DNA from: Chryseobacterium gleum
GTDB lineage: Bacteria > Bacteroidota > Bacteroidia > Flavobacteriales > Weeksellaceae
DNA: 64,000 nt
Direction of reading: 5' to 3'
NCBI RefSeq assembly: GCF_900636535.1
Contig: NZ_LR134289.1
Span: 3,224,001-3,288,000, forward strand
Below, one piece after another: positions 41,852 to 51,335 of the stretch. The notes under the pieces were generated by a model, which was not told the origin of the DNA, did not search any database, and saw nothing but the letters and a program-made list of their open reading frames with translations. Position 1 is the first letter of the stretch. Each line of letters begins with the position of its first letter. The translations under genes and the position numbers were made by a program.

Positions 41852-42400
41852 ATGAAAAAGTATATTTCTTTACTGATGATTTTTGGATTCCTGTTTCTCT
41901 TTCAGAGCTGTGCGTCACAGGGGGCTTCAGATCCGAAAATGGTGAGTGCTTTGGTTGATTCACAGGAGTTTACCTTCTATGCACAAAGAGCCAATCCTAC
42001 GAATTATGATGTTATTAATGTCATGAATTCAATGCCTAATGCCACTGCAACGAGAATGCTTAATCTGAATGGAGATTATACCATTGATGTCAGTAAAAAT
42101 ACGCTTGATGTAGTTCTACCTTATTTCGGAAGGCTGTTCAACCCAACTTATGGAAATACAAGTGATAATAGCTACCGATTTACTTCAAAAGATTTTACAG
42201 TAACTAAAACTCAGAATAAAAAGGGAAAATGGACTTTAAAGTTCAAGCCAAAAGATGTAAGAACTGTTGATGAAATCAATATTGAGATCTTTAAAAATGG
42301 CAAAGCTTTCGTTTCTATGAGAAGTAATGACAGGCAACCTATTTCTTATGATGGTTATATCTCTAAAACTGAGGTTAAACAGGAAAAGGACAAACCTTAG
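41852..42400 (+). CDS. DUF4251 lipoprotein
   Basis: A 182-residue predicted lipoprotein. The N-terminus MKKYISLLMIFGFLFLFQSC has its lipobox cysteine at residue 20. The mature part matches the DUF4251 pattern: VDSQEFTFYAQRANP, LNGDYTIDVSKNTLDVVLPY, FGRLF, and DFTVTKTQNKKGKWTLKF. Function is unknown. The ATG at 41852 places the signal correctly; the frame is open further upstream but lacks a better start. Its stop codon overlaps the convergent meaB by 4 bp, so the two genes share no terminator. Confidence 0.85.
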   Translation: MKKYISLLMIFGFLFLFQSCASQGASDPKMVSALVDSQEFTFYAQRANPTNYDVINVMNSMPNATATRMLNLNGDYTIDVSKNTLDVVLPYFGRLFNPTYGNTSDNSYRFTSKDFTVTKTQNKKGKWTLKFKPKDVRTVDEINIEIFKNGKAFVSMRSNDRQPISYDGYISKTEVKQEKDKP

Positions 42401-43389
42401 TCTCTGTTTTCATTAGATAAAAATTTTTCAACAAATAATTTTGCTTCAGTACTTGGATTGGAAACCATCGCTGAAGCATTTTTTTTGTGCATATGATAAG
42501 CTTCTTCTACAGCATTGCTCTTTTTCATGAGTGACAAAATATATTCCTGCACCCAGTACTCGAAGCGTTTTTCAGCCTGCTGAACACGGATTTCGTCAAA
42601 ACGGCCGCTCTTCTTTTTCAGATCAATAAACTCATAAATTTTATCATAAACTTCCTGCAATCCCTCATTGTGAAGGGCTGAGCCTAATAAAACAGGGATT
42701 TTCCATCCTTTTTCTTTTGGAGGAATAAAGTCTAAAGCTCTTTTTAATTCAAGCCTTGTATTTTTTGCTTTCTGAAGATTGTCTTTGTCTACCTTATTGA
42801 TGAAAATAACGTCTACCATTTCCATGATGCCACGCTTTATGCCCTGAAGCTCGTCTCCTCCTCCAATGATTTTAAGGAATAAGAAAACATCGGTAATATC
42901 GGCAACCAGTACTTCTGATTGTCCTACTCCAACGGTTTCTATTAAAATATAATCATACCCTGCGGCCTCACAGATCATCATGGTTTCAAAAGTAGTATTG
43001 GCTACTCCGCCCAAAAAGCCTGAACTTGGGGAAGGACGTATAAAGGCATTTTCTTCTTTGGCAAGCTCTTCCATTCTGGTCTTATCCCCTAGAATACTTC
43101 CTTTGTTGATTGCCGAGCTGGGATCAATAGCCAAAACAGCTACTTTTTTTCCTTGAGCAATAGCCAACCTTCCAAAATTTTCTATAAAAGTGGATTTTCC
43201 AGCTCCCGGAACTCCGGTGACTCCTACCCTCACAGAGTTTCCGGTAAGGGGCATAATCTTCTTCAGAAGCTCCTCTGCCTGTACTCTGTGTTCTGCTTTT
43301 TTACTTTCAACCAATGTAATAGCTTTTGCAATCAGGCGTTTGTTTCCTGACTGTATTCCGTCTATTAGCTCTTCTGTAGAAAATTTCAT
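42397..43389 (-). CDS. meaB: MeaB-type GTPase, methylmalonyl-CoA mutase chaperone
   Basis: MeaB (ArgK) is a G3E GTPase that loads and protects the cobalamin of methylmalonyl-CoA mutase. The protein has 330 residues from the ATG at 43389. The P-loop is GVPGAGKST at about 59-67. Other motifs are AIDPSSAINKGSILGDKTRM, the switch region ETVGVGQSEV, and NKVDKDN for guanine recognition. The mutase gene is at 49218-51335 on the same strand, about 6 kb away with the repair operon in between. Confidence 0.94.
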   Translation of the reverse strand: MKFSTEELIDGIQSGNKRLIAKAITLVESKKAEHRVQAEELLKKIMPLTGNSVRVGVTGVPGAGKSTFIENFGRLAIAQGKKVAVLAIDPSSAINKGSILGDKTRMEELAKEENAFIRPSPSSGFLGGVANTTFETMMICEAAGYDYILIETVGVGQSEVLVADITDVFLFLKIIGGGDELQGIKRGIMEMVDVIFINKVDKDNLQKAKNTRLELKRALDFIPPKEKGWKIPVLLGSALHNEGLQEVYDKIYEFIDLKKKSGRFDEIRVQQAEKRFEYWVQEYILSLMKKSNAVEEAYHMHKKNASAMVSNPSTEAKLFVEKFLSNENRD

Positions 43390-43585
43390 TGTTTCAAAAT
43401 TAATAATTAAAATGGGAATGATCAATAGCTGCCTCATAATGACAGGACAAAAGGCATAAATTGCCTGATCTGATACTGACGATTCTTCATCAGTTCAATT
43501 TTTATTTCTTCTAAATTAAAACTACAACACCCTGTATCAACGGCTTAAGGAATTTATTACATTTGTTATATATCAAAAAAGAAAC

Positions 43586-43879
43586 ATGAAAAAACTTATT
43601 GCTGCGGCTTCGTTAACTGCTATTCTGCTGGTTTCCTGTACGCCGAAAGCTGCTACATCCACTGCTACTGCAGGCGCTGCAACGTCTACTGCAGAACAGA
43701 TTGCTCAGGGGAAAACCATTTTTGAAAATTCCTGCGGAAGATGCCATAAATTACCGGATCCTGCTTCACATAATCCTGTGCAATGGGTAGGAATCATGAA
43801 TTCGATGGCGCCAAAAGCTAAACTGACGGATGAACAGCATCAATGGGTTTATGACTATATTGTTTCTGTGAAGAAGTAA
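43586..43879 (+). CDS. Small cytochrome c lipoprotein 1
   Basis: A 97-residue predicted lipoprotein with a single heme c domain. The lipobox cysteine is residue 18 (AILLVSC). An alanine- and threonine-rich linker follows. The heme site is CGRCH at 50-54, and the likely axial methionine is in MAPKAKLTD. It is among the smallest class I cytochromes c and would be anchored to a membrane facing the periplasm, as an electron carrier. A close paralogue lies 18 bp downstream. Confidence 0.88.
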   Translation: MKKLIAAASLTAILLVSCTPKAATSTATAGAATSTAEQIAQGKTIFENSCGRCHKLPDPASHNPVQWVGIMNSMAPKAKLTDEQHQWVYDYIVSVKK

Positions 43880-43897: not shown

Positions 43898-44185
43898 ATG
43901 AAAAAAATCATCTTAGCCGGTTTCGCAACATCAGCATTTCTGGTATCATGCGGACCAAAAAGTGTGGCTGTAACAGGGCCAAAGTATACCTCATCTGAGC
44001 AATTGGCGCAAGGAAAAACGATCTTCGAAAATTCCTGTGCAAAATGTCATAAACTGCCGGAACCTACGAAGCATGATGACAAAGGATGGATCAATACGTT
44101 AAGCAGAATGGCTCCAAAAGCCAAGCTGACGGATGACCAACATCAAATGGTGTACGATTATCTGATTTCTGTAAATAAAAAATAA
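43898..44185 (+). CDS. Small cytochrome c lipoprotein 2
   Basis: A 95-residue paralogue of the preceding gene. The lipobox cysteine is residue 18 (AFLVSC) and the heme site is CAKCH at 47-51. Both proteins share the runs QGKTIFENSC and MAPKAKLTD, which shows a tandem duplication. The linkers before the heme domains differ, as does the loop after the heme motif. A terminator hairpin starts at the stop codon. Confidence 0.88.
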   Translation: MKKIILAGFATSAFLVSCGPKSVAVTGPKYTSSEQLAQGKTIFENSCAKCHKLPEPTKHDDKGWINTLSRMAPKAKLTDDQHQMVYDYLISVNKK

Positions 44186-44209
44186 GCTTTCAATAGAAAG
44201 CTTATTTTC
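44181..44209. terminator. Terminator shared by the cytochrome pair and the repair operon
   Basis: A perfect 11-bp stem (44181-44191 with 44196-44206, loop AATA) begins at the stop codon of the second cytochrome gene and continues into T residues. It is also the only candidate terminator for the convergent operon ending at 44234. Confidence 0.82.
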
Positions 44210-44233: not shown

Positions 44234-44740
44234 TTATTCTGCCTTTTTTACAGTTCTTGTTCTGGTTGCCTTTCCTTTGACTAATTTTTCTCTTTCTTCA
44301 AGTATATCCAGCGCTGCTCTGCTGTAAGCAAATCTTTTGGCTTCTTTAAGCGTTGCTAAAGCCTGTTTATACTCAAAGTTTCTTTCCTGCATAAGAGACC
44401 GGCAATTCAGAATTTCTGATTTGTCAATTCCTTTTAGTTTCAGGGCAAATTCAATTAATTTTCCGGCTTCGTCATAATCTTCATTATTCAGGAGACATTC
44501 AATATAATACTTGGGAGTATTGACATTTCCAATATTATTCTGCATCGCTTCATCGAAATATTTCTTTGCCGTTTCATAATCTTTTAATTCTTCGGAATAT
44601 ACTCTTCCCATCAGACAGAGGCTGTCTGCGTCTTCTGGTTCGTAAGATAACGCATAGTTCAGCGCATCAATACATTCGGAAAGGTTGAAAGGAAAGTAGT
44701 CTAATGCTTCAAAATAATATTTACTTTTAGTTAAGGTCAT
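44234..44740 (-). CDS. TPR-like protein, last gene of the RtcB/PrfH operon
   Basis: A 168-residue soluble, helical protein. Residues 20-145 read as tetratricopeptide-like repeats, for example YEPEDADSLCLMGRVYSEEL followed by DYETAKKYFDEAM, then ALATLKEAKRFAYSR. The C-terminal 15 residues are basic (KGKATRTRTVKK). TPR units usually serve protein contacts. The start at 44740 overlaps the prfH stop by 14 bp, so translation is probably coupled. Nothing else shows a function; a scaffold for the PrfH or RtcB step is a guess from position. Confidence 0.75.
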   Translation of the reverse strand: MTLTKSKYYFEALDYFPFNLSECIDALNYALSYEPEDADSLCLMGRVYSEELKDYETAKKYFDEAMQNNIGNVNTPKYYIECLLNNEDYDEAGKLIEFALKLKGIDKSEILNCRSLMQERNFEYKQALATLKEAKRFAYSRAALDILEEREKLVKGKATRTRTVKKAE

Positions 44741-45425
44741 TTCTATAGTTTTTAAGTTCGTTTTTCAAGGCATTCCTTTGTTTTTTGAATGTCCTGTCTT
44801 TATAATTCTTTTTAAAATCCGTCCCGGAAAATGTACGGACCGGATTTCCGCGTTCTACCTGCATCTGAAGGGACCATGTATCTTTCATCTTTCTTTCCAG
44901 CTGTTGGATATAAACGGCCATTACCTTTTCTTTAAGTCTGATAACGGATCGCTTTTTATTCTCCAGCTGTGAACGGGAATCCTGTACAAAGACCGTTTCA
45001 TTAGTGGGAATGTGGGTAGCCCGCACAGCGGTATTCACCTTGTTTACATTTTGCCCTCCACTACCCTGGCTTCTCGCTGTCTGAAACCTGATATCTTTTT
45101 CATTGAAATCAATCATTTTTACATTTTCCAGTTCAAAGATCCCGATAAACCAATTGCTTCTTTTATGCAGTTTTCTGAATGTACTTTTTCCTGTCCAGCA
45201 AACAGTTCCCAACCAGTTTTTTAAGAAAAGATTTATTTCTTTTCCTTTCAAAAGGATAGTCACAGATTTTAATGTCAGGTTTTCATCACCGTTTTCACGA
45301 TGAATGATTTCGTAGTCTATTGTATTTTGTTTGGCCTCTTCAAGAAAGGTCTTCAGAACTTTGGCGGCTACCCACTGGCATTCCAAAGGACCTCTTCCTG
45401 AAGTGATCTGTATAATTTTTTCCAT
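44727..45425 (-). CDS. prfH: PrfH, release-factor-like ribosome rescue protein
   Basis: PrfH is a class I release factor homologue that frees the peptide from ribosomes whose decoding centre has been damaged. The protein has 232 residues from the ATG at 45425. The GGQ peptidyl-hydrolase motif is at about 123-125 ([19 protein letters not shown]). The N-terminal 110 residues are unlike RF1/RF2 domain 1, and no codon-reading PxT or SPF motif is visible. The C-terminus is very basic. This size and layout fit PrfH, not a broken RF1 or RF2. Its start is 2 bp after the nucleotidyltransferase stop, and rtcB lies one gene further upstream, the known pairing. Confidence 0.9.
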   Translation of the reverse strand: MEKIIQITSGRGPLECQWVAAKVLKTFLEEAKQNTIDYEIIHRENGDENLTLKSVTILLKGKEINLFLKNWLGTVCWTGKSTFRKLHKRSNWFIGIFELENVKMIDFNEKDIRFQTARSQGSGGQNVNKVNTAVRATHIPTNETVFVQDSRSQLENKKRSVIRLKEKVMAVYIQQLERKMKDTWSLQMQVERGNPVRTFSGTDFKKNYKDRTFKKQRNALKNELKNYRNDLN

Positions 45426-45427
45426 TT

Positions 45428-45973
45428 TTATATAGGCATTTTGCTTAATAAGGGGTGTCCAACTGGATTTATTCCCTTTTGTAATAAATCTTTTGCAGCC
45501 ATCACTGCCCAGCACTTATCACTGGAGTGAATATTTCTGTAAAATGAAAGTAAAATATCAGGTTTCACAATGGTAAAACCATTAGCGTTTATGGTTTCAA
45601 GATCATTTCTTTCAAAAAAATCTATGGTTATTCTGTGGAATTTATCATTTTCAAGCTCTACCGTTTTTTCATACCTGCGGAAGTTCTCTTCACTGGGCAG
45701 ATGATCATACCGGGTCCAGACTTTCTGAAAGCCTTCCTCCTGAAGAATAATAACAACATCTGCTACATTTTCTTTTTTTACAAAAACATCAATATCCTTA
45801 TGGTCATGAGCATGCTTATATTCTGTATGTCCTGTTTCAGACATAAAATGCCATGCCCAGCCGCCTGATATAATGACTTTATCTTTTAATTTATCTAAAA
45901 TTTCAAGTCCCAACCGGATTCTGAATTCCGGCCAGACTTCACCGTATCTTTTTATGTTATGTGGTGCTCCCAT
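45428..45973 (-). CDS. Nucleotidyltransferase-fold protein in the RtcB/PrfH operon
   Basis: A 181-residue protein. It has the marks of the polymerase-beta-type nucleotidyltransferase fold: SGGWAWHFM with the double glycine at 37-38, a DxD pair in HKDIDVFV (D60, D62), and a third acidic residue likely in RITIDFFER (D118). The helical C-terminus contains SSDKCWAVMAAKDLLQKG. I cannot name the exact family; it looks nearest to aminoglycoside- and MNT-type transferases. Between rtcB and prfH it may add nucleotides to, or otherwise modify, a broken RNA end. That is inferred from position. Confidence 0.72.
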   Translation of the reverse strand: MGAPHNIKRYGEVWPEFRIRLGLEILDKLKDKVIISGGWAWHFMSETGHTEYKHAHDHKDIDVFVKKENVADVVIILQEEGFQKVWTRYDHLPSEENFRRYEKTVELENDKFHRITIDFFERNDLETINANGFTIVKPDILLSFYRNIHSSDKCWAVMAAKDLLQKGINPVGHPLLSKMPI

Positions 45974-46001
45974 TTTTTTGTTTTTAAATATTTTATTTAT
46001 T

Positions 46002-46033
46002 CAACCTTACAGGTTTTGAAACCTGTAAAGTTG
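46002..46033. repeat. 32-nt palindrome in the rtcB to nucleotidyltransferase spacer
   Basis: Fifteen-nucleotide arms pair with one mismatch around TG; the core is TTACAGGTTT-TG-AAACCTGTAA. No T-run follows on the minus strand. It resembles the short REP-like palindromes scattered in Bacteroidota genomes, from memory. Confidence 0.65.
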
Positions 46034-46049
46034 TAAAATATCAGGTTGA

Positions 46050-47441
46050 CTACCTGTCCATTCTCACAATTCTCGGCTGGAAAGTTCCCAGGATATCTAC
46101 CAGTTCACTCTGCGCATTCATCACTTCATTAATGTCTTTGTAGGCCATTGGTGCTTCCTCTGCATTTCCGCCTATCAGGGTGACATTTTTCAGCTTCAGT
46201 TCTTTTTTGATATCATGCTGGGTAAAAAGGCTTCTGCATTCTCCTCTGGAATGTGCTCTTCCAGCTCCATGTGATGCTGAATTCAGGGATTCCGGATTTC
46301 CTTTTCCACGCACAATAAATCCTTTTGCTGTCATGGATCCCGGGATCATTCCCAGTTCATTTTCATTGGCAGGCGTTGCTCCTTTTCGGTGAACAATCAC
46401 TTCTTTTCCATTATGGATTTCTTTCCATGCAAAATTGTGATGGTTCTCAATTCTGGCTTTTACTCTTCCACCAACCGCTTTAACGAGCCTTCTGTGAATA
46501 TCATCATGACAGGCTGAAGCATAATCCCCGGCGAGATTCATTGCGGTCCAGTATTCCAGTCCCAGATGAGTACTCAGATCAAGCCATGCGAAGTTTTGTG
46601 CTTCTTTTGGTAACGGACATTGTTCTGTCGCCATTCTTGAATAATACTGTGCTATTTCTGCCCCCAGGCCTCTTGAGCCACTGTGAGAAAGTATTCCCAG
46701 ATATTTTCCTTTTGGCAGGCCAATTTGTTCGTCTTCTTCAGTGATTTCCACTTCTCCGAATTCTACAAAGTGATTTCCTCCGCCTGAGGATCCCATCTGT
46801 TTGATGGCTTTTCCCTTTAATCTTCTTAAGATCGGAATCATATCAAATGTATCCCTGTCGAAAATCTCATGATCTATGTGAGATTTATGCGTTTCATACA
46901 TCCCGAATTTTGTATGTTCAGCAAGAGCTTTTTCATACTTATCCCTTGCTCCTTCAAGATATGATACCGGTGTATCCAAAATACTGAGGCTCATTCTGCA
47001 GCCAATGTCCATTCCTACTCCGTAAGGAATTACTGCATTTTCTACCGCTAGAACTCCTCCTATCGGAAGACCGTACCCGCTGTGGGCATCCGGCATTAAT
47101 GCTCCCTGAGTAGAAACAGGCAGTTTTAATGCTGTGTATAGCTGATTTTTTGCCTCTTCCGAAATGTTGTTTCCAAAAATCTGAAACGGGGCACGCTGTG
47201 AATTCAGCATTCTCTTTTCTGTTTTTTTGGACGAAAGCAGGGTTTCTGCAATTTGCCCGAAGGTGAGATCTTTTTCAAAGCTCTCCGGATTCAGCAGAAT
47301 TTCCTTTAAGAGAGATCTTACATGGTGAATATTTTTGGTTGCAAAATTTCTTTTCATGACTTCCAATGCTACATTAACGCTTTGGTTATTTGGATAGCCC
47401 AGTTTTAATATATCTTTTCCTTTTAGTTTTAAATTTCCCAT
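46050..47441 (-). CDS. rtcB: RtcB family RNA ligase
   Basis: RtcB joins RNA ends with 2',3'-cyclic phosphate or 3'-phosphate to 5'-OH, using GTP and manganese. The protein has 463 residues from the ATG at 47441 (MGNLKLKGKDILKLGYP). About 85 N-terminal residues precede the catalytic core. Manganese and active-site motifs are GVGMDIGC (D145, C148), SSGGGNHFVEFGE near 218-230, LSHSGSRGLG, HHNFAWKE and HRKGATPA; the guanylated histidine is probably H391 in SASHGAGRAHSR. All key residues seem intact. The frame continues upstream to 47588 but overlaps the preceding gene. Its pairing with prfH marks it as the ribosome-repair type of RtcB. Confidence 0.93.
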   Translation of the reverse strand: MGNLKLKGKDILKLGYPNNQSVNVALEVMKRNFATKNIHHVRSLLKEILLNPESFEKDLTFGQIAETLLSSKKTEKRMLNSQRAPFQIFGNNISEEAKNQLYTALKLPVSTQGALMPDAHSGYGLPIGGVLAVENAVIPYGVGMDIGCRMSLSILDTPVSYLEGARDKYEKALAEHTKFGMYETHKSHIDHEIFDRDTFDMIPILRRLKGKAIKQMGSSGGGNHFVEFGEVEITEEDEQIGLPKGKYLGILSHSGSRGLGAEIAQYYSRMATEQCPLPKEAQNFAWLDLSTHLGLEYWTAMNLAGDYASACHDDIHRRLVKAVGGRVKARIENHHNFAWKEIHNGKEVIVHRKGATPANENELGMIPGSMTAKGFIVRGKGNPESLNSASHGAGRAHSRGECRSLFTQHDIKKELKLKNVTLIGGNAEEAPMAYKDINEVMNAQSELVDILGTFQPRIVRMDR

Positions 47442-47469
47442 TGTTTTTTGTTTTAAATAACAGTCGGAC

Positions 47470-48207
47470 TTATACGTCCTGTAAGCTTTCTGCAATCTCT
47501 GTTGCAGACATTGTGCAGGTAATATATTTCCTGCTTTTGATAAGTGAAATATCTTCTCTTTTTCTTTTCCCTGAAGATGACTTACCATACATTGTTTTGT
47601 TGATAATTCCTACAATTTTATGCTGCCATAAATAATCGTCCAGTTCTGCGCATTCTTTGTCCAATTCAAAATCTACAGGTTTATAATGGGTGATCATATT
47701 AGGTCTTATACGCAGGATAAATCTCCAGGGTTCAATAAATTCGTAATAAGGAACATAAGACTTCCGGGCCGGACAATATTCTTCCTGTCTCAAAAAATAC
47801 GGTCTTTCTCTTGCTGTAAGTCCCAGCTTCGGGTCATTCCAGGAATATGAAGAAATATGCTGGAGTTTCTGTACTCTTTCTACATATATTCTCCGCCCGA
47901 ATTTTCTTTTCTTTTTCAAAAACCGGCGGCTTTCCGAATACATGTAGGTATTAATTTTCTTCAATATTCCTTCAAAGAAATCTCCGTCTTTAGATCTCAT
48001 GACATCTTCCCTTACCACAAAGAATCGTACAAATCCTCTTTGATAAGGTTTATCCAAAGGAATCCATGGGATATTTCGTCTGATTTCCCAAAGTTCTTTA
48101 CTACGTCGATATTTTTTTCTTATCTGCTTTTCTACATCTTTTCTAATTGTTCTTTTTCTGCTTCTCACGCTTCTCAGGCGGGAAAACAGAAGATTATCAT
48201 TTTCCAT
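47470..48207 (-). CDS. Unrecognised basic protein, first gene of the RtcB/PrfH operon
   Basis: A 245-residue soluble protein that I do not recognise. The first 40 residues are extremely rich in arginine and lysine (RLRSVRSRKRTIRKDVEKQI). Basic and aromatic stretches alternate after that: YMYSESRRFLKKKRKFGRR, YYEFIEPWRFILRIRPN and MYGKSSSGKRKRED. Conserved-looking Trp-Pro and Tyr-Arg pairs suggest a real folded domain. There is no signal or membrane segment. The composition suggests RNA or ribosome binding. It ends 28 bp before rtcB and is the first gene after the operon promoter, so a role in recognising or controlling the repair substrate is an attractive guess. Confidence 0.75.
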   Translation of the reverse strand: MENDNLLFSRLRSVRSRKRTIRKDVEKQIRKKYRRSKELWEIRRNIPWIPLDKPYQRGFVRFFVVREDVMRSKDGDFFEGILKKINTYMYSESRRFLKKKRKFGRRIYVERVQKLQHISSYSWNDPKLGLTARERPYFLRQEEYCPARKSYVPYYEFIEPWRFILRIRPNMITHYKPVDFELDKECAELDDYLWQHKIVGIINKTMYGKSSSGKRKREDISLIKSRKYITCTMSATEIAESLQDV

Positions 48208-48232: not shown

Positions 48233-48287
48233 AAAACTTATTTGTTTTTATCTCACACAACTTTTAATCAACTAAAGCATTAGTTGA
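48233..48287 (-). promoter_or_regulatory. Promoter and palindromic site of the RtcB/PrfH operon
   Basis: On the minus strand TTG (48260-48258), a 17-nt spacer and TAAGTTTT (48240-48233) form a near-consensus promoter, differing at the last base. The start of transcription would be about 19 nt before the ATG at 48207. Just upstream lies a perfect palindrome, TCAACTAA-AGCA-TTAGTTGA (48268-48287), centred near -52. This is a position used by activators. Confidence 0.55.
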
Positions 48288-49217: not shown

Positions 49218-51335
49218 TTAATTTAGAAATTTTTCCAGGATTTCCACAGCACATTTCGGAAGGTTGGTTCCGGGTCCGAAAATAAAATCTGCACCGTTGG
49301 CATACAGGAATTCATAATCCTGCTGAGGGATTACTCCTCCTACAACGATGGTGATATCATCCGCTCCCAGCTTAGCCAATTCTTCCACAACTTGTGGAAC
49401 TAATGTTTTGTGTCCTGCAGCCAATGAAGAAACTCCTAAAATGTGAATATCATTTTCCACAGCCTGTTTAGCGACTTCTTCCGGTGTCTGGAATAATGGA
49501 GCAACGTCTACGTCAAATCCCATATCGGCAAATGCTGTTGCTACTACTTTTGCACCTCTGTCGTGTCCATCCTGGCCCATTTTGGCAACCATCAGCCTTG
49601 GGCGACGTCCTTCTTCTTCTTCAAATTTCTGAGTCAGTTGAAGCGCTTTTTCAAAGTATTCGTTTTTACCGGCATTCATTGCGTATACACCAGAGATTGT
49701 TTTAATATTTGCTTTATATCTTCCAAAGGTTTCTTCCATGGCATCACTCATTTCGCCAAGGGTAACTCTTCTTCTCGCTGCTTCGATGCATAATGCCAGA
49801 AGGTTTCCTTTTCCTGTTTTGGCGCTTTCACGGATTTCATTCAGGATCTGCTCAACAGCTTCAGTATTTCTTTCTGCTTTAATCGTATTCAGTCTTTCAA
49901 TCTGTTTTCTTCGAACTTCGGTATTATCAATGTCTAAGATTTCTATCTGGTCCTGTTTTAATGAGGATTTGAATGAGTTCACTCCGATGATGAATTCTTC
50001 ACCACTGTCAATCTTAGCTTGTTTTTTGGCAGCTGCTTCTTCAATTCTCATTTTTGGAATTCCAGCTTCGATAGCTTTGGTCATTCCCCCTTCCTGCTCT
50101 ACCTCATCGATGTACCTCATGGCTTCTTCAATCATCTGCTGGGTAAGGCTTTCTACAAGATTGCTTCCTCCCATCGGATCTACCACATCACATATCCCGC
50201 TTTCCTGCTGAAGAATGATCTGTGTGTTTCTTGCAATTTTCGCTGAATAATCTGTAGGAAGAGCAATGGCTTCATCTAATGCATTGGTGTGGAGAGACTG
50301 CGTTCCTCCTAATGCTGAAGATAAAGCTTCAATGGCTGTTCTTGTGATATTATTGAAAGGCTCCTGTTCTGTCAGGGACCATCCGGATGTTTGAGAATGG
50401 GTTCTTAATGCCAGCGATTTCGGATTCTGAGGATTAAACTGTTTTAAAAGAGTTGCCCAGATGTATCTTGCGGCACGCATTTTAGCAATTTCCATAAAAT
50501 GGTTCATCCCGATGGCCCAGAAGAATGATAACCTTGGTGCGAAATCGTCAACATTCATTCCTGCTTTGATTCCTGTTCTTACATATTCAAGGCCGTCTGC
50601 CAGCGTGTAAGCCATTTCCAGTACGGGAGTGGCCCCTGCTTCCTGCATATGGTACCCAGAGATAGAGATAGAATTGAATTTTGGAATATTTTGCGAAGTA
50701 TATTCAAAGATATCTGCAATGATCTTCATGGAAGGTGCCGGCGGATAGATGTAGGTATTTCTTACCATGAATTCTTTCAGTATATCATTCTGAATGGTAC
50801 CTGAAAGCTGTTCCTGCTTTACACCCTGCTCTTCTGCGGCAACGATATAGAAAGACAAAATAGGAAGTACAGCACCATTCATGGTCATGGATACTGAAAT
50901 CTGATCTAACGGAATTTCATTGAAAAGGATTTTCATGTCTTCCACAGAATCAATGGCAACTCCTGCCTTTCCTACGTCTCCTACCACTCTTGAGTGATCA
51001 GAGTCATATCCTCTGTGCGTTGCCAGATCAAATGCCACTGAAAGTCCTTTCTGACCGGCAGCAAGATTTCTTCGGTAAAAAGCGTTGGATTCTTCAGCAG
51101 TAGAAAATCCTGCATACTGGCGGATTGTCCACGGTTTCTGTACATACATCGTAGAATACGGTCCTCTTAGGTAAGGTTCAATTCCCGGAGAAGTCTGTGT
51201 TAATGATTCATCTTTTACATCTTTTCTCTCATAGGATGATTTGAGTTCAAGTCCGTCTTTTTCAAAGTTGTAAATCTCTCTTGCCTGAGGTGATACACTA
51301 AAATCCGGTTTTTTCACAGAAATTGTCTTTCGCAT
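49218..51335 (-). CDS. scpA: Methylmalonyl-CoA mutase, large (catalytic) subunit
   Basis: This B12 enzyme interconverts methylmalonyl-CoA and succinyl-CoA. The protein has 705 residues. The substrate barrel contains [20 protein letters not shown] near 55-75, [13 protein letters not shown] and [19 protein letters not shown]. The C-terminal cobalamin domain has DGHDRG at about 589-594, whose histidine replaces the base of B12, and [12 protein letters not shown]. No small subunit gene is adjacent, although many Bacteroidota have a mutA gene directly upstream. The length fits a subunit that could work as a homodimer or with a distant partner. MeaB is encoded 6 kb away. Confidence 0.95.

Follow-up and report, generated by a model that had tools for sequence, protein, structure and literature searches.

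Do the genes that stand beside an RNA ligase and a release factor take part in the same repair system, or are they just neighbours? This question is raised by an operon of Chryseobacterium gleum at positions 44234 to 48207 of the window, the 64,000-nucleotide stretch of contig NZ_LR134289.1 analysed here, in which rtcB and prfH are accompanied by genes for a basic protein (BAS), a nucleotidyltransferase (NT) and a TPR protein (TPR). A reading made from the letters alone (the sequence-only reading) had proposed an expanded machine that recognises damage, trims or extends the RNA end, releases the peptide and religates. We observe that TPR, NT and BAS are real, conserved partners of rtcB-prfH, and not chance neighbours; TPR is near-core, and NT and BAS are optional. 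The expanded assembly itself is not a new inference, as it was already in print in 2019 (Burroughs & Aravind, PMC6514570).

The five genes, given from their open reading frames (ORFs), are the following.

47470..48207, minus strand: BAS, basic protein, 245 aa, pI 10.0; ORF of a family linked to rtcB
46050..47441, minus strand: rtcB, RNA ligase RtcB, 463 aa; PF01139, aligned motif residues
45428..45973, minus strand: NT, nucleotidyltransferase of Pol-beta fold, 181 aa; fold, D-D-D
44727..45425, minus strand: prfH, peptide chain release factor H, 232 aa; TIGR03072, PDB 9mor_A
44234..44740, minus strand: TPR protein, 168 aa, overlapping prfH by 14 bp; PF14559

They are transcribed in the order BAS, rtcB, NT, prfH, TPR, with intergenic gaps of 28, 76 and 2 bp followed by the overlap of prfH and TPR. 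These positions, the common strand and the gaps are exact to the base in the ORF coordinates, just as first described. The rtcB start is the ATG at 47441, and the listed ORF of 512 aa is an upstream extension that overlaps BAS.

Is the core pair intact?

RtcB scores 269.4 bits on PF01139 (cut-off 27), and in an alignment with solved RtcB it keeps D145, C148, N223, H224, E227, H253, H335 and H391, which we take to be the metal and GMP residues. PrfH exceeds the equivalog model TIGR03072 (200.7 bits, cut-off 166.65), has its GGQ motif at residues 123-125, and matches PDB 9mor_A with an E-value of 1.1e-95. Thus, by family score and motif the pair is of the known rtcB-prfH kind, with the intact RtcB motifs and the GGQ that the sequence-only reading had seen.

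The operon is not of the rtcBA/RtcR type, as a PF01137 search finds no RtcA cyclase in the genome (0 matches; the control search is positive in 5 of 14 genomes). That genome is a single contig of 5.6 Mb, and its closest RtcB relatives are from Chryseobacterium in a tree built by a quick method from 97 of 146 sequences, with Chryseobacterium thinned. It also has a second, distant RtcB (L192, G000:C1:5303888-5321655), which adjoins a 585-aa protein with no Pfam match and a divergent WYL-domain regulator. The anti-phage defence models of PADLOC-DB give 0 matches to the five proteins at E 0.01.

Which genes stay with rtcB and prfH?

We have used several samples, and each count has to be read against its own. 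The family survey comprises 120 genomes, 44 of them with TIGR03072 over cut-off, and 44 loci were read (the window, and 43 loci with 8 kb flanks, some shortened by contig ends). The order survey comprises 346 genomes, with thresholds of E 1e-25 for TPR, E 1e-15 for NT and the TIGR03072 cut-off for prfH; of its 71 prfH genomes, 18 prfH loci outside the family and 2 inside the genus were read. For BAS, the phylum was covered by an even sample of 345 genomes, and a scan of 84,980 named genomes gave 83 loci, the best 80 of which were examined. Because these 80 were picked by BAS, they are a biased sample of rtcB. A collection of 145 prfH loci is likewise largely BAS-selected, with species repeated.

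At the 44 family prfH loci, rtcB is found in 43 (L071 has none, and in L070 it is split), TPR in 38, BAS in 9, NT in 8 and a zinc-ribbon protein in 7. The five labelled genes follow the window's order in 41 of the 80 BAS-selected loci, unlabelled ORFs not being counted. The idea of an expanded system was to fall if the extra genes were absent from most related loci. TPR is present at most of them, in the order (68/71) as in the family (38/44), so for this gene the idea stands; it is weakened in part for BAS (9/44) and NT (8/44). The expectation that the genes co-occur beyond chance is borne out for all three, which are tied to rtcB-prfH loci throughout the genome surveys. Since BAS or NT, wherever present, sits at this locus, we regard them as optional dedicated modules.

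The TPR protein

The window's protein matches PF14559 with 29.7 bits, over the gathering cut-off of 25, which confirms its TPR-like identity. In the order, prfH is present in 71 genomes, TPR in 78, and both in 68. In these 68, TPR lies directly 3′ of prfH on the same strand, with 9-286 bp between the model ends. TPR is found in only 10 of the 275 genomes without prfH vs. 68 of the 71 with it (Fisher p 4e-57, with shared ancestry uncorrected). The three prfH genomes with no TPR match at the order threshold are G142, G297 and G292, and the G292 locus keeps a TPR remnant of 59 aa.

The family gives a similar picture. At E 1e-10, TPR is found in 46 of the 120 genomes, 38 of 44 with prfH and 8 of 76 without; the latter are five strong matches (at least 194 bits), one partial and two weak. 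At the 38 prfH loci, TPR follows prfH directly in 37 and lies 4 kb away in one; it is missing from L034, L035, L036, L038, L044 and L040, the last of which is at a contig end.

What does TPR do when prfH is gone? We examined 15 loci in which a TPR relative occurs without a full prfH, and in 9 of them the TPR copy lies near rtcB or a slipin gene. L157 is a decaying cassette with rtcB, a 64-aa prfH remnant and TPR, L162 and L167 have rtcB and TPR without prfH, and in L159, L160, L161, L163, L164 and L166 the TPR relative shares the locus with slipin, RtcB or both. In L182, TPR stands between prfH and a slipin gene, with rtcB ahead of prfH and a distant-clade RtcB farther along, beyond slipin. 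Because of this layout, and because TPR without full prfH occurs near rtcB or slipin, TPR seems to be linked to RtcB repair loci at large.

Slipin-RtcB pairs are known elsewhere. Here, slipin (Band_7) genes accompany TPR relatives in L160, L161, L163, L164, L166 and L182, most of which also have RtcB.

A basic protein dedicated to rtcB

BAS was described as an unrecognised basic protein, and so it is. Its pI is 10.0 (the family median is 9.94, n = 84), and it has no match in Pfam, NCBIfam or PADLOC. An AlphaFold model has a pLDDT of 84.5 overall and a pTM of 0.65, and is confident for about residues 20-200.

In the phylum sample BAS is found in 12 of 345 genomes and adjoins rtcB in 12 of 12; one of these, from another class-level family (G537), has BAS-rtcB-prfH without TPR. 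A whole-genome search of the family finds BAS in 9 of 120 genomes, each time at a prfH locus. Among the 80 BAS-selected loci, which are mostly from Chryseobacterium and also from Empedobacter, Algoriella, Capnocytophaga, Paenimyroides, Chitinophaga and Dawidia, rtcB lies within 8 kb in 79, the exception being L144. There is no prfH within 8 kb in four of the 80 (L144, L154, L155 and L156), so that in 3 of the 79 rtcB-bearing loci (L154-L156) BAS is with rtcB and no prfH is within that distance. Thus, BAS is an rtcB-dedicated protein.

A divergent BAS also precedes rtcB in L182, L183 (two copies), L184, L186, L187 and L214, and a profile comparison gives a probability of 97.4 and an E-value of 9.5e-12 over 170 columns. 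The BAS alignment (A10) holds 24 of the 120 listed relatives, 398 having been found.

A nucleotidyltransferase between rtcB and prfH

The Pfam matches of NT are weak, just under their cut-offs. By fold and D-D-D active site, it is nonetheless a nucleotidyltransferase of the Pol-beta superfamily: the aspartates D60, D62 and D118 do not vary across 57 aligned rows, and in structural comparison the fold matches MenT1/MenT3 as well as ANT/Lnu. The earlier assignment of this fold to the gene between rtcB and prfH is therefore correct. MenT toxins add nucleotides to tRNA. On the NCBIfam models for lincosamide nucleotidyltransferases (LnuC/D/P) it falls far short, with 16-19.4 bits against cut-offs of 300-325. 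The alignment of NT (A7) has 54 of 120 listed relatives, from 665 found.

NT is found in 28 of the 346 order genomes, all 28 with prfH; in 27 it lies 14-586 bp upstream of prfH on the same strand, and in one it is on another contig. In the family, a whole-genome search finds it in 8 of 120 genomes, each time at a prfH locus. In a further genus 6 of 58 genomes have NT, with rtcB upstream in 6 of 6, and prfH follows directly in 5 of these, two genes intervening in the sixth.

The sequence-only reading had the RNA end extended by NT and then sealed by RtcB. This order of events does not find support and is chemically awkward, because RtcB needs ends with a 3′-phosphate or 2′,3′-cyclic phosphate, NT should leave a 3′-OH, and RtcA is not found in the genome.

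Nor is there a gene for the proposed trimming step in the window. At other loci, a DEDDh exonuclease (PF00929) is present in 9 of the 145 prfH loci (L146-L149, L177, L183, L187, L214 and L216), from Capnocytophaga, one genus of Flavobacteriaceae and the genus of G184, and four of these also have NT. KptA acts on RNA 2′-phosphates, and KptA/Tpt1 (PF01885, 162.7 bits) is present in 2 of the 145, both from Capnocytophaga (L139 and L141). The window's operon contains neither KptA nor the exonuclease.

How is the operon controlled, and what surrounds it?

Outside the five genes, three features bear on expression.

48268..48287, no strand assigned: palindrome TCAACTA-N6-TAGTTGA, candidate operator, 60 bp 5′ of the BAS start codon; conserved upstream of relatives' cassettes
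45988..46041, minus strand: strong hairpin without a T-run in the rtcB-NT gap; folding z -6.06
44179..44208, no strand assigned: terminator-like hairpin between TPR and the convergent upstream gene, closing the operon; folding

In 146 sequences upstream of cassettes (mostly BAS-picked loci, with species partly repeated), the palindrome is exact in 42, has one mismatch in 24 and two in 3, and is missing from 77. It stands mostly 70-90 bp ahead of the first gene, before BAS in 53 cases and before rtcB, where BAS is missing, in 16. All 69 carriers are in the window's family; the palindrome is missing from the non-Chryseobacterium loci among L138-L156 and from the Flavobacteriaceae loci among L172-L191. 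The copy in this operon is the only site in the genome with 0-1 mismatch. A reversed control pattern also has one genome site at up to one mismatch, so uniqueness alone proves little, and at up to three mismatches the window has 2 matches vs. 4.7 expected. The case rests on conservation upstream of the relatives' cassettes, from which we consider the palindrome to be probably the dedicated operator of a regulator.

A hairpin in the leader, from the palindrome to the start codon, was rejected as a specific feature: the mean z is -2.54 for 60 leaders vs. -2.63 for 60 sequences of equal length upstream of the palindrome and -2.26 for the reverse strand, and a 60-row alignment of leaders gives no consensus fold.

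A single promoter for the five genes, as had been claimed, does not find support, as no promoter could be identified ahead of the operon in the window sequence, and the strong hairpin sits in the 76-bp gap between rtcB and NT. In a control, hairpins are common in the intergenic regions of these loci. The one in the rtcB-NT gap might split the transcript or stabilise it.

The operon is flanked by genes at 42397-43437 and 49218-51335, presumably for methylmalonyl-CoA mutase and its GTPase partner, and genes resembling these are similarly placed in many Chryseobacterium loci. The TPR orphan L168 lies between ORFs similar in size to those flanking genes and is perhaps a cassette remnant. At 43586-43879 and 43898-44185, convergent with the operon, are two tandem, similar short CxxCH proteins that by eye are like small c-type cytochromes.

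What could the five genes do together?

We consider it moderately probable that the operon is a chromosomal ribosome-rescue and rRNA-repair set with dedicated extra modules. The trigger would probably be nucleases that cut rRNA at the decoding centre. By homology with E. coli RtcB2-PrfH, for which both steps have been demonstrated, PrfH would enter the A site of the nicked, stalled ribosome and free the peptide, and RtcB would then reseal the 2′,3′-cyclic-phosphate/5′-OH break. BAS would most likely be an adaptor that binds rRNA or a subunit and brings RtcB to its substrate, and TPR a protein scaffold at the prfH/rtcB locus. NT would most likely act on RNA 3′-OH ends left by further trimming, in rRNA or tRNA, beside and not before the RtcB step.

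Several observations weigh against this reading. RtcB falls below the model for E. coli-type RtcB2 (142.4 bits on TIGR03073, cut-off 271.8), so its substrate may differ from that of the E. coli type. All five genes are together in only 3 of the 44 family prfH loci, and thus no single five-part machine is required. For six TPR orphans (L158, L165 and L168-L171), neither rtcB nor slipin lies within 8 kb. The best fold matches of NT are antibiotic-modifying enzymes, and the BAS model has no usable structural match in the PDB or a viral library, which is not proof of a new fold. The partner roles of BAS, TPR and NT are ones that we infer, and their activities are predicted. Finally, at high copy, RtcB2 by itself is protective in E. 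coli (PMC9223846).

What else could explain the locus? One alternative, which we consider unlikely, is that the main target is a tRNA or mRNA cut in the ribosome and not 16S rRNA, with NT repairing tRNA 3′ ends and the operon being a tRNA-repair system. A tRNA end repair role has been proposed for the NTase (PMC6514570), and KptA and the exonuclease do occur at some prfH loci (2 and 9 of the 145). However, the window's operon has neither, and E. coli rtcB2-prfH failed to protect from colicins E5 and D, which cut tRNA (PMC9223846). Just as unlikely, in our view, is that some extras, NT and perhaps others, do not repair RNA but act on small molecules or modify antibiotics, and have only settled in an operon for translation stress; here the fold matches of NT have to be set beside its Lnu scores and its place at rtcB-prfH loci.

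The least probable is that the extras are conserved bystanders, inherited with rtcB-prfH as an island without joint function. In its favour, related genera make up much of the sample, ancestry is left out of the Fisher test, BAS and NT have a patchy distribution, and L157 is decaying. Against it, the flanks vary but gene order is kept in Weeksellaceae, Flavobacteriaceae, Capnocytophaga and an order other than that of the window, BAS stays with rtcB even with no prfH within 8 kb, separate genera have NT at the locus with 60-70% identity, and 9 of the 15 TPR copies away from an intact prfH are still near rtcB or slipin.

The repair set can also be taken further. BAS might be the substrate-delivery subunit for a whole clade of bacterial RtcB, docking RtcB onto the small subunit and forming, with the TPR scaffold and a nucleotidyltransferase that resets 3′ ends, a modular rRNA repair machine under its own operator and a regulator that senses ribosome or RNA damage. 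This version is speculative, and we would bet against it.

The recognition and resealing of a nicked ribosome is known for one two-gene system. The counted loci offer partners that can be tested: BAS, which is dedicated to rtcB, the near-universal TPR protein, and NT, which is optional. The palindrome, as a defined candidate regulatory sequence, offers a way towards the inducing signal. Should the partners prove necessary, these bacteria would repair RNA with a modular complex and not with a lone ligase.

Comparison with known systems

The closest description is that of PMC6514570, which reports next to RFH-RtcB a TPR protein, an NTase of the Pol-beta superfamily, a zinc-ribbon protein that has a basic helical region, and a charged protein for which there are no homologs, and suggests for the accreted genes a scaffold role, a role in RNA-end repair and contact with rRNA. 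The window's operon agrees with this expanded RFH-RtcB by its gene order, with TPR and NTase genes beside rtcB and prfH, and has the same accessory kinds. BAS may be that charged protein, RFR being the name that a legend there gives to unknown associated domains; it fits the wording, and the comparison is by description only. What we add to that paper are the counts, the BAS-rtcB loci with no prfH within 8 kb, the look at the NT and BAS folds, the palindrome, and KptA and the exonuclease, although its supplement may list some of the loci. KptA is not mentioned in its main text. The literature searched mentions neither the palindrome, nor KptA at these loci, nor loci that have BAS and rtcB but no prfH, which is weak evidence of novelty, the supplement of PMC6514570 and a 2016 companion paper being outside the scope.

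The experimental reference is E. coli ATCC25922, in which rtcB2-prfH protects against colicin E3 in vivo (PMC9223846). In both systems rtcB and prfH are adjacent and PrfH is over the same curated model. They differ in gene number, with two in the E. coli operon as described vs. five here; in RtcB, which here scores under the TIGR03073 cut-off for E. coli-type RtcB2; and in PrfH, which at 232 aa has a longer C-terminus than the 204 aa of the E. coli-type chain 7sa4. In this last respect it is closer to the 231-aa PrfH of PDB 9mor/9mq4, with which it aligns over 2-225, including the C-terminal extension; that PrfH is known here as a structure only. NT differs from ANT(2″)-Ia, LnuA and MenT by an identity of 9-16% in structural alignments, by scores far under the Lnu cut-offs, and by being found at rtcB-prfH loci.

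Thus, the operon belongs to a known, under-studied kind, and the most useful new leads that it offers are the rtcB-dedicated BAS and the candidate operator.

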